A stretch of 64,000 nt of DNA from Akkermansiaceae bacterium. Lineage in GTDB: Bacteria > Verrucomicrobiota > Verrucomicrobiia > Verrucomicrobiales > Akkermansiaceae. Positions 29,631-32,250 of this stretch are shown here, piece after piece. The position numbers were made by a program, and so were the translations under genes. The stretch lies in assembly GCA_025354565.1 (NCBI GenBank), contig JANXMQ010000220.1, forward strand, positions 1 to 64,000. Reading direction: 5' to 3'. The notes beneath the pieces were generated by a model. The model worked only from the letters and a program-made list of their open reading frames with translations. It did not search any database and was not told the DNA's origin. Position 1 is the stretch's first letter, and the number at the start of each line of letters is the position of its first letter.

Positions 29631-30158
29631 TCATGGCTGAAAGGAAACCGGCGGGGAAATGGCAGTCGAATACCGCTCGGCATATCCGGCCAAGAAATCC
29701 CAGCCGGGCGTGGTGCGATACTCCCAAGTAAGCTTCTCAGCGGGATATGTCTGGGTAATGGGCTGAATGATGGCGGCAACATCGGCGTCGGGAGCGACGC
29801 AGAAGTAGTAATGACGAAAGCCGCCAAATGTCTCGACGAGAATGGGCACGCCGCGAGGTGGTGAGTCGAACGCCGAAGTAATCGCAACGTCGAAATCTTC
29901 GAGCGTCTTGTTGTATTCGGGCTCGGGGCGGCCGTCAGGGTAGCGGTGGGTGAACTCGTGCGACACCACAGCAAGACGCGAGTAACGCTTGCGGTTGGTG
30001 GGCGTGTCCACGTTGGTTGGTCGCCGAAGATAGAGCGGAAAGGTCTCATACGTGTGGCCCGACCCAACCCAGTGGCGCTATGGACGAGAAAAACGCCAGA
30101 CGAGGAAGGCAACGAGTGCGATGACGGCGACGATACAGGCAATCTTCAAAGCGATCAT
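29631..30158 (-). pseudogene. Cassette gene for membrane-anchored DUF695-like protein with in-frame stop
   Basis: Translated from ATG 30158, the product begins MIALKIACIVAVIALVAFLV (a membrane anchor), reaches WRFSRP, meets TAG at 30078-30080, and then continues in the same frame with RHWVGSGHTYETFPLYLRR and a globular domain to 29631. The globular part (FGGFRHYYFCVAPDADVAAI, then LTWEYRTTPGWDFLAGY) resembles DUF695. Restart at a GTG (30011) could still give a 126-residue soluble piece. The start lies 22 bp after an attC-like site, as for a cassette gene. A sequencing error could also explain the stop. Confidence 0.6.
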
Positions 30159-30179: not shown

Positions 30180-30272
30180 GCCTAACGACTCAAGCTCAGC
30201 GACCCGGCCCACGGGACGCCACGATTGCAACCGGGACGTAATGGCCGGGTTCGCTGCAGAGCATGGTTAGGC
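30180..30272 (-). other. attC-like recombination site 1
   Basis: Read on the minus strand, the site opens GCCTAACCATGCTCTGCAGCG and closes CGCTGAGCTTGAGTCGTTAGGC. The outer boxes fit the attC consensus RYYYAAC...GTTRRRY, and the inner arms are imperfectly complementary, as attC hairpins require. It lies between the stop of the DUF4190 gene (30280) and the start of the next gene (30158), the normal position in a cassette array. The core for recombination would be GTTAGGC at 30186-30180. Confidence 0.75.
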
Positions 30273-30279
30273 CACGGTC

Positions 30280-30564
30280 TCACTGCTGAATCCAATTCTG
30301 TCCATGAGCGCCTTGGTAAGCACCGATAGCAGAGTTGATGATGGTCAAAACTAGGCCGATGATACTCAAAGTAAGCCCGGCAACCGCCGTCCCTCGGCTC
30401 GTAGATTTCATGCCCTTCAGCGACATTACCAGTCCGACAATCGTGACGGGAAAGCCGAATAGCGGGAGAAACCAAGCGAGCATCCCGATGATGCCCAAAA
30501 CAAGTCCTGCCGTGGCTTTGCCTGTGGGGTTTTCTGTTGGAGTTGGTGAGGTGTTATTGTCCAT
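30280..30564 (-). CDS. DUF4190 small membrane protein (cassette gene)
   Basis: A 94-residue protein with a short Pro/Thr-rich N terminus and two membrane helices: ATAGLVLGIIGMLAWFLPLF...VTIVGLVMS and TAVAGLTLSIIGLVLTIINS. The repeated A.AGL.L.IIG pattern is typical of DUF4190. No enzymatic residues are evident. It starts 40 bp after an attC-like core (GTTAGAC at 30610-30604) and stops 8 bp before attC-like site 1, so it is a self-contained cassette of about 424 bp. Confidence 0.8.
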   Translation of the reverse strand: MDNNTSPTPTENPTGKATAGLVLGIIGMLAWFLPLFGFPVTIVGLVMSLKGMKSTSRGTAVAGLTLSIIGLVLTIINSAIGAYQGAHGQNWIQQ

Positions 30565-30603
30565 ATAGTTTGTAGTGTGTTGTGTTTGCTAAATAATCGA
30601 GCG

Positions 30604-30781
30604 GTCTAACATGTTATTCGATGACGAGTCGTGATGTTTTACGACTCGTCGCATAGCAAACTGGTTTTTGCCGATTCATAGGTGTAAACTGCGTGACTCA
30701 GCGTTTCCCGGCAAGGATCAATTTGCCGGGGAGTAACGATTACGAGCGGTGATTTCGGGCGACGCGTGCGGGTCTAGTGGC
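30604..30781 (-). repeat. Long repeat copy A, containing attC-like site 3
   Basis: A 176-bp block (30606-30781) matches 32075-32250 with six mismatches and no gaps. At its cassette-facing edge, 30604-30670 looks like an attC: GTTAGAC core on the minus strand, imperfect arms, and a perfect 10-bp stem GACGAGTCGT/ACGACTCGTC with an 8-base loop. The opposite box (GTTTTTG on plus, 30664) is degenerate. Further on, CCCGGCAA/TTGCCGGG forms a second perfect hairpin. The extra 110 bp would be the 3' end of the cassette carrying this attC. Confidence 0.8.
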
Positions 30782-31020: not shown

Positions 31021-31446
31021 CTATTCGATCTTCAAATTTGAAAAATCTAGGCCCGACCCCGTCCATCCGCGTAGCGACGTTGGAGTTGAGCTGCCAGTCG
31101 GAACAACGCTCCTTGGAATGAGGATGAGAAGGCCCCACAAGAGGCTAGCGAGGCCAAGCCAAGCCGAAGCTACCGTTGCAGCGATGAGCGACTCTCGCCG
31201 GAGACTGAAATATGCTAGGACAACGTAGATGAGCAGACCCAAGCCGCAGACTACAGCAAAAAAAATCGCAATATAACGTCCGTGTATCGTGTCGTGAGAC
31301 ATAGCCACTAAGTCCCGCGTTGCCTGATATGGTAAGAGCACAAGCATATGTGTGCCTGTCGGAGTAACAAGTGAGCGGAGATAGCTGAGCAGGAAGATCA
31401 ACGCGGGAATCAACAAAATAGCGACAATGGCGAGTTTCTTTTTCAC
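31021..31446 (-). CDS. Polytopic membrane protein (cassette gene)
   Basis: A GTG start at 31446 gives 141 residues beginning VKKKLAIVAILLIPALIFLL, with about four membrane helices, including IAIFFAVVCGLGLLIYVVLA and TVASAWLGLASLLWGLLILI. The family is not recognised. The start lies 27 bp after the core of attC-like site 2 and overlaps the stop of the preceding frame in GTGA. About 240 bp without a gene follow its stop before repeat copy A. Confidence 0.65.
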   Translation of the reverse strand: MKKKLAIVAILLIPALIFLLSYLRSLVTPTGTHMLVLLPYQATRDLVAMSHDTIHGRYIAIFFAVVCGLGLLIYVVLAYFSLRRESLIAATVASAWLGLASLLWGLLILIPRSVVPTGSSTPTSLRGWTGSGLDFSNLKIE

Positions 31447-31838
31447 GATTTCAGAGAAGCGCTCGGCGAGTCGCCTAACGACCCCAAGCTCAGCGACGGC
31501 AGAGTGCGGCGCGGCATGGTGGGCGGCAAGGCGTCGGCGGAAGCAGGTGCCGTGACGCACGGAGCAGTTCGCTGCAGCGCATGGTTAGCGAAGGATTCAA
31601 TTCTGTTTTGCTCAGGTTTAGTTGACTGAAGCTTTGCGGCTCTGATGACGGTTGCGACGAACGCGCAAATACAAACTGCGGGAGCAACCTGCAAATACGT
31701 CCATTCGATTCCGGATCCCTGGAAGCCAGCCCCGCCGGGTTGGGATTGCAGTGTCCGCACAAACAACGTGTGCATAGTAATCGTCGTGAAGTATGCCGTT
31801 ACGAAAACGTAGAAATATGAGGATAGAAACTTCTTCAT
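31443..31838 (-). CDS. Small membrane protein whose frame reads through an attC site
   Basis: The 131-residue frame begins MKKFLSSYFYVFVTAYFTTI and has a second hydrophobic stretch (VAPAVCICAFVATVIRAA). From about residue 83 it runs through attC-like site 2, which gives the tail NHALQRTAPCVTAPASADAL. It ends with TGA at 31445-31443, overlapping the GTG start of the next cassette gene. NHALQRT-type tails are a known sign of attC translated as protein. The native domain is therefore probably only the first 80-85 residues. Confidence 0.6.
   Translation of the reverse strand: MKKFLSSYFYVFVTAYFTTITMHTLFVRTLQSQPGGAGFQGSGIEWTYLQVAPAVCICAFVATVIRAAKLQSTKPEQNRIESFANHALQRTAPCVTAPASADALPPTMPRRTLPSLSLGSLGDSPSASLKS
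31473..31590 (-). other. attC-like recombination site 2
   Basis: On the minus strand it opens CGCTAACCATGCGCTGCAGCG and closes CGCTGAGCTTGGGGTCGTTAGG. Both arms closely match site 1, so the two sites are homologous. The opening box CGCTAAC departs from RYYYAAC at its first two bases, while the GTTAGGC core is perfect. The site is longer (118 bp) than site 1 (93 bp), with the variable centre differing, as expected of attC sites. Confidence 0.72.
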
Positions 31839-31878: not shown

Positions 31879-32052
31879 TTATCTGAATGTAAGCAACGAC
31901 ATTATTGCTGCGGCCAACACGAGCGCGCCGACGGCTGCGATAAGAAATTGACGTCGCTGCAATGCGGTAGCTGTTTGATAGCGACGAACCGTGAAAGCAA
32001 TTGCGAACAGCGAGAGGACAACGAAAAATATAATGAGGGATAAGTCTTTCAT
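31879..32052 (-). CDS. 57-residue two-helix membrane protein (cassette gene)
   Basis: The frame from ATG 32052 to TAA 31879 encodes MKDLSLIIFFVVLSLFAIAF, then TVRRYQTATALQRRQ, then FLIAAVGALVLAAAIMSLLT-FR. That gives two membrane helices joined by a basic loop. It begins 20 bp after an attC-like core (GTTAGGC at 32079-32073), the usual cassette spacing. No homologue is recognised. It shares a cassette with the 131-residue frame that follows. Confidence 0.55.
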   Translation of the reverse strand: MKDLSLIIFFVVLSLFAIAFTVRRYQTATALQRRQFLIAAVGALVLAAAIMSLLTFR

Positions 32053-32072
32053 TGCAGATGATGCGCGGAGTC

Positions 32073-32250
32073 GCCTAACATGTTATTCGATGACGAGTCG
32101 TGATGTTTTACGACTCGTCGCAAAGCAAACTGGTTTTGGTCGATTCATAGGTGGAAACTGCGTGACTCAGCGTTTCCCGGCAAGGATAAATTTGCCGGGG
32201 AGTAACGATTACGAGCGGTGATATCGGGCGACGCGTGCGGGTCTAGTGGC
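32073..32250 (-). repeat. Long repeat copy B, containing attC-like site 4
   Basis: Positions 32075-32250 match copy A (30606-30781) at 170 of 176 positions by eye. The same 10-bp and 8-bp perfect hairpins are present. The core facing the cassettes is GTTAGGC (32079-32073, minus). The opposite degenerate box is GTTTTGG at 32133. The cassette that should lie upstream on the minus strand has no recognisable gene in 32251-32687. Confidence 0.8.

Follow-up and report, generated by a model that had tools for sequence, protein, structure and literature searches.

A predicted 131-codon reading frame in an Akkermansiaceae genome runs from a cassette gene straight across an integron attC recombination site and ends on the start codon of the next cassette gene, which raises the question of whether attC sites are translated and can pass ribosomes from one cassette to the next. 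The locus lies in a 64,000-nt stretch of contig JANXMQ010000220.1 (the window), on the minus strand of which two short cassette blocks are found. Three reading frames across attC are distinguished here: frame C is the one that encodes NHALQRT (CCT AAC CAT GCG CTG CAG CGA ACC), frame A hits a TAA in R'', and frame B is usually closed within attC. The features of the two blocks are as follows.

32075-32250, minus strand, block 1: attI-like 176-bp repeat, copy 1, with the crossover between G and TTAGGC at its 3' end
32049-32123, minus strand, block 1: attI-ORF of copy 1, crossing the crossover, reading LRRVVKHHDSSSNNMLGDSAHHLQ to its stop, with a TTG start and an ATG at 32081
31879-32052, minus strand, block 1: first gene of cassette 1 (MKDLSLIIFFVVLSL...), 57 aa
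31443-31838, minus strand, block 1: 131-codon frame, an upstream cassette gene (MKKFLSSYFYVF...) continuing directly into frame C of attC site 2
31473-31590, minus strand, block 1: attC site 2, R'' side CGCTAAC at 31590, R' GTTAGGC ending at 31473
31443-31446, minus strand, block 1: GTGA, the TGA (31445-31443) of the crossing frame overlapping the GTG (31446-31444) of the next gene
31021-31446, minus strand, block 1: next cassette gene, 141 codons, (V/M)KKKLAIVAILL..., predicted membrane-like
30606-30781, minus strand, block 2: attI-like 176-bp repeat, copy 2
30589-30654, minus strand, block 2: attI-ORF of copy 2, reading MRRVVKHHDSSSNNMLDRSII to a TAG stop upstream of the ATG at 30564
30280-30564, minus strand, block 2: cassette gene upstream of site 1, 94 aa, with a weak DUF4190-like match under the Pfam cut-off
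30182-30283, minus strand, block 2: mini-ORF of attC site 1, reading VRPWPNHALQRTRPLRPGCNRGVPWAGSLSLSR to a TAG (30184-30182) within R'
30180-30272, minus strand, block 2: attC site 1, from TAAC at 30269 to the R' end at 30180
30078-30158, minus strand, block 2: putative short gene 3' of site 1, reading MIALKIACIVAVIALVAFLVWRFSRP to its stop

The geometry reported in a first-pass annotation of this DNA is exact. The 131-aa frame crosses attC site 2, reading ...ESFANHALQRTAPCVTAPASADALPPTMPRRTLPSLSLGSLGDSPSASLKS to its stop, and the TGA overlaps the GTG of the next gene at the coordinates given. It had also been noted that site 1 encodes an NHALQRT-type peptide in a frame other than that of the gene upstream of it, which was confirmed; the GTG of this mini-ORF overlaps the TGA of the upstream gene (GTGA, 30283-30280). 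Site 1 thus has a GTGA entry and a TAG exit, and site 2 the less common entry, direct read-through, with a GTGA exit. The crossing frame matched no family in a Pfam search and the 141-codon gene has no homologue among 30 relatives, so both gene models are predictions from sequence alone. The leader of the 141-codon gene is GCGCTTCTCTGAAATC, in which no Shine-Dalgarno-like motif was seen. An Rfam search of the window gave no match. The stretch that separates the 141-codon gene from copy 2 of the attI-like repeat (31021-30781) has no visible attC; the 141-codon cassette therefore appears truncated, and the region appears to consist of two separate blocks.

Both window sites carry the R'' (RYYYAAC) and R' (GTTRRRY) cores of attC bracketing complementary L''/L' arms. 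The cores are GCCTAAC...GTTAGGC in site 1 and CGCTAAC (an imperfect 7-mer)...GTTAGGC in site 2, and the arms are CAGCGA/TCGCTG in both. From TAAC to GGC site 1 measures 90 nt and belongs to the in-phase class, while site 2, with its TAAC at 31587, measures 115 nt and is off phase. As expected of attC, the sequence recurs between different cassettes. The genome to which the window belongs (G000, a 5.1 Mb draft) has about 15 such sites and nine places matching the attI-like repeat, and a search with an R''-half pattern yielded the 178 distinct attC sites, from 114 records, on which the comparisons below were made.

The 176-bp repeat is called attI-like because its homologues are found about 0.2–0.3 kb downstream of IntI sequences with which they share the strand, namely a remnant (on C53) and a complete IntI (L271). 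The latter (TIGR02249, 400.8 bits) is found in the Akkermansiaceae MAG that also holds L060, and has a cassette and then an attC of the window type after it. The integron at this locus (G555:C284) is small and complete: intI and the cassettes share one strand, and attI follows the 3' end of intI. On the window contig no IntI match was obtained, only remnants being found beside related loci in G000; the complete intI-attI-cassette-attC unit is that of G555, and the window array is best described as CALIN-like with attI-like repeats. Many short C-terminal IntI remnants are present in G000 (L002-L008, L037, L040 and L041, on C211, C53, C123, C11, C100, C125 and C172), which suggests repeated decay of integrase genes. 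The only full-length match to the integron integrase model in this genome (L015, on C166; TIGR02249, 308 bits) adjoins an ORF judged by eye to be terminase-like and has no attC beside it, and so may be a phage integrase. Loci of the attI-like repeat are the two window copies, L017, L030, L031, L034, L035, L036 and L270-L272. The repeat has a 9-bp palindromic stem and, in a different frame, a further mini-ORF, M[NS]R.KPVC.ATSRKTSRLVIE, whose TAA lies one base before the crossover ATG.

Frame C is kept open across these sites. Among 88 unique canonical 90-nt sites none has an internal frame-C stop, against 18.0 expected from column permutation (minimum 10 in 500 permutations), whereas frames A and B agree with their permuted expectations (20 vs 15.2 and 86 vs 84.6, respectively). 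This difference shows that the openness of frame C is selected, and an open frame across attC is, by this measure, not a matter of chance in the attC family of the window. Over all 178 sites, frame C reaches R' or passes it without a stop in 155, and frame B in 34. The frame comparison across related attC sites called for by the first-pass annotation thus found the NHALQRT frame to be selectively open.

Such openness might serve to make a functional peptide or C-terminal tail (NHALQRT...), for example a tag or a small protein, and the peptide is indeed nearly invariant in its first codons and at its GSLSLGR end. However, these invariant parts coincide with the arms of the recombination site, and the middle varies equally at the three codon positions, with entropies of 0.94, 0.96 and 0.92 in the variable attC loop. 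Moreover, entry into the frame would yield a free peptide at the majority of sites and a tail at the remainder. Because no third-position excess is seen, conservation of the peptide was rejected as the target of selection, and we regard a peptide function as very unlikely. What matters appears to be that the frame is translated, the peptide itself not being conserved. We infer that frame C is coding from its openness and from the placement of start codons.

The placement of starts upstream of attC is strongly phased. After collapse to 177 clusters with less than 60% upstream identity, an ATG within 30 nt upstream of TAAC was found in frame C 139 times and in the other two phases 17 and 11 times (p=3e-40); for ATGA the counts by phase are 97/7/4. 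Further upstream, at 61–150 nt, ATG has no phase bias (77/62/83). GTG and TTG entry starts have none either and were excluded as evidence; this makes the GTG start assigned to site 1 less secure. Counting any start that feeds the frame, frame C is fed at 165 of 178 sites and frame B at 50 of 178. As the ATG idea arose from the site list and its test relied for the most part on those very sites, loci L140-L176, mostly unread at that time, serve as a partial hold-out, in which the bias is 38/2/0.

An extension of the recombination site, inherited as ATGACG...GCCTAAC and not acting as a start codon, could in principle leave a similar trace, and some bases before R'' are conserved (G at -3 and -6). 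The ATG lies 5, 8, 11, 14, 17, 20, 23, 26 or 29 nt before TAAC, that is, at nine spacings that are multiples of three apart, with unrelated sequence between, across the 177 clusters. Such spacing is the mark of a rule on reading frame and not of a fixed motif, and makes an inherited extension extremely improbable.

Translation would enter frame C by one of three routes. In the first, the cassette gene ends in frame B as ATGA, as do 40 of 52 such genes, with a further 4 ending as GTGA and 3 as TTGA. In the second, the R'' TAA serves as the stop of the gene, whose last codons contain an ATG (phases 41/1/1 for 50 frame-A ORFs). In the third, a gene already in frame C simply continues into attC, which is the route taken by window site 2. 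A frame-C stretch open for at least 120 nt upstream is present at 46 of 178 sites, some of which may be spurious ORFs. Read-through into attC, as first proposed for site 2, is therefore present there and is a minority route; an ATG-started mini-ORF is commoner, usually coupled to the upstream gene by ATGA.

At the other end, frame C stops at a TAG inside R' (CGT TAG GC) in 94 of 178 sites. Since the crossover falls between G and TTRRRY, the last bases of this stop come from the incoming cassette, as they do for ORF-11 of class 1 integrons. The window-type sites (R' half with GGGG; 115, 121 or 169 nt) are off phase, and their frame C crosses R' as TTA GGC. At phase-1 sites of this type the matching TTA frame meets a stop in the 30 nt that follow in 23 of 30 cases, the other frames in 6 and 7 of 30 (p=2e-5), whereas downstream of TAG-ended sites no frame is preferred for closure within 30 nt (31, 34 and 29 of 101). 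This contrast is the best exit-side evidence. Downstream starts lie mostly 10–25 nt past R'. What is conserved at the exit is a stop near the next start, either the R' TAG or a stop within 30 nt. Window-type cassettes also share a loose 5' leader motif, GTTAGGCGnnnCtcGCnCntcccRTGAacg, placed 5–30 nt after R' (e.g. L060, L193 and window 31472-31447), which is possibly an initiation or recombination signal.

The exact overlap of stop and start, which had drawn attention to site 2, is real there and is not what the family conserves. Exact exit overlaps occur in the window, L020, L060, L083, L193, L257 and L260. By phase such overlaps number 15:8:8, marginally above chance (p=0.06), GTG starts alone giving 8:0:4 (p=0.02); beyond this an exact NTGA overlap is not supported as a conserved exit feature. 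The GTGA at site 2 is one exit variant, and the general feature is the frame-C mini-ORF. By itself the geometry of site 2 is weak evidence for coupling, and the site could be accidental, a random ORF crossing a stop-poor attC frame and happening to end on a start. That the exit overlap alone is near chance, that the upstream frame belongs to no known family and that site 2 is without its own ATG near R'' would all fit such an origin, yet it does not explain the frame-specific stop avoidance, the ATG phase bias and the frame-matched exit stops over independent sites. We consider accident unlikely; it may still hold for the single GTGA of site 2, not for the class.

The attI-like repeats are built in a comparable way. 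In window copy 1 the attI-ORF ends in a TGA (32051-32049) that overlaps the start ATG of the first cassette gene. Each of the 11 copies examined has its attI-ORF (consensus MRRVVKHHDSSSNNML up to the crossover) open across the junction in the same TTA frame, the other two frames being closed before or at the junction. The first cassette supplies its stop in 10 of 11 copies, 9–42 nt past the crossover TTA codon, and the remaining copy reaches the contig end. An ORF of the ORF-11 type, crossing the crossover and stopped by the cassette near its start, is thus found in the attI-like copies.

The comparisons among sites demonstrate, at the level of sequence, a selected architecture of entry, openness and exit in frame C: the short ORF is fed by the upstream gene, open through attC and stopped near the next start. 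The proposal that translation passes between cassettes via attC is accordingly strongly supported as far as sequence selection goes, and attC sites of this integron lineage probably double as short coding regions that would relay ribosomes to the next cassette. A ribosome finishing a cassette gene would enter frame C by termination-reinitiation at ATGA, or at an ATG in the last codons of a gene that ends at the R'' TAA, or directly where the gene itself is in frame C. Its passage through attC would keep the mRNA hairpin open. It would then stop at the R' TAG or, where attC is off phase as in site 2, in the first 30 nt or so of the next leader, and reinitiate at the next cassette start, 10–25 nt further; a similar ORF in attI would feed the first cassette. 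Site 2 of the window would be the direct-entry, GTGA-exit version. Translation of frame C, melting of the hairpin and raised downstream expression are the predicted consequences of this architecture. The RNA of site 1 is predicted to form a strong hairpin (z = -4.55) with CAGCGA/TCGCTG paired, while that of site 2 is not more folded than shuffled sequences (z=+1.34), so melting of a hairpin is not supported at site 2 itself.

It had further been suggested that passage would not depend on a fresh ribosome site at the next cassette, and this may be so. A Shine-Dalgarno-like 4-mer precedes 7 of 113 downstream cassette genes, against 75 of 504 control ORFs and 31 of 108 attC-ORF starts. Translation of attC could instead mainly protect the array transcript, as cover against Rho termination or RNase, with no delivery of ribosomes. 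Openness and entry are explained equally well in this way, and arrays are long with usually promoterless cassettes (PMC8876359). However, protection needs no stops near the next start, yet the exit stops are frame-matched, and the downstream genes are poor in Shine-Dalgarno motifs. We hold transcript protection as the main role to be possible though rather doubtful, and it is not exclusive of a ribosome relay.

The ATG bias is seen both in records titled Verrucomicrobiota (69/8/5) and in those titled with other phyla (27/3/4), for which MAG binning is uncertain. Records of Brevifollis gellanilyticus and Lacipirellula limnantheis are among those with attC sites of this family. A generic attC finder applied to the same arrays returned 5 sites in a first version that was too strict and 20 when relaxed, with ATG counts of 11/1/1; these sites are of mixed quality and give a hint only. 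A second attC family is found in G180, a Verrucomicrobiota genome with more than 100 matches to attC arms with GAAC/GTTCGGC cores on many contigs, and with intI on C45 (loci L219-L256, on C10, C17, C31, C33, C38, C43 and C45). With a [TG]AAC anchor 94 sites of this family were obtained, a strict TAAC anchor having given 9 sites and no bias. Frame C is kept open here as in the first family and is fed at 87 of 94 sites, the other frames at 45 and 58 of 94; frame C is mostly closed just before R' (78/94), and the ATG bias is weaker (20/9/7). attC-like sites also occur on contigs classed as viral in IMG/VR (L177-L194, L206-L218 and L257), and may be either phage-borne cassettes or host sequence. 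For attC on viral contigs the ATG bias is not significant (6/4/2), and none was seen in the small samples of VCR (n=11; 1/2/2) or class-1-type (n=23; 6/4/1) attC on such contigs.

The idea of coupling through recombination sites is not new, since ORF-11 and ORF-17/18 of attI1 in class 1 integrons (Hanau-Bercot et al., as presented in section 3.1 of PMC8876359) and a short ORF in attC that relieves a stem-loop translation block, with experimental precedent (Jacquier et al. 2009, as presented in section 3.2 of PMC8876359), have been described. In the account of that review, ORF-11 resembles the present ORFs in being short, in lying in a recombination site and crossing the crossover, in taking its stop from the GTTRRRY core (TAG) or the cassette leader, and in a proposed termination-reinitiation at an SD-poor cassette start. 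As described there, it is confined to attI and has its own SD, whereas here nearly every attC carries an ORF. The attC ORF is here, unlike ORF-11, mostly started by an ATGA overlap with the upstream gene, and an attI-like site unrelated to attI1 carries a frame-matched ORF. For the attC ORF of Jacquier et al., as for ours, it is proposed that the ribosome continues past the cassette stop, prevents the hairpin and reaches the next cassette (PMC8876359). That ORF is described, in the same review, for particular clinical cassettes, while here an entire attC family of environmental integrons shares the feature, which is statistically conserved, with selection on entry, on openness and on exit. In bacterial operons, an ATGA overlap couples translation of adjacent genes by stop/start reinitiation; the second ORF is here a recombination site with an unconserved peptide. 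In the literature searched, most subscription journals lying outside it, we found no paper describing coupling as a general property of an attC family and none with NHALQRT in its text.

It is an evenly balanced possibility that attI, attC and cassette leaders follow a single standard reading-frame convention, forming a modular relay in which exchange is constrained by attC length modulo 3. If so, a cassette inserted anywhere would be fed by the ribosomes of its neighbour, which bears on how distal cassettes are expressed in long, mostly promoterless environmental arrays. The NHALQRT-like tails on predicted proteins of these bacteria are explained as attC sequence and not as domains. If attC is translated, arrays would act as translationally linked operons, attC evolution would be under coding-frame as well as recombination constraint, and the compatibility of cassettes may depend on attC phase.
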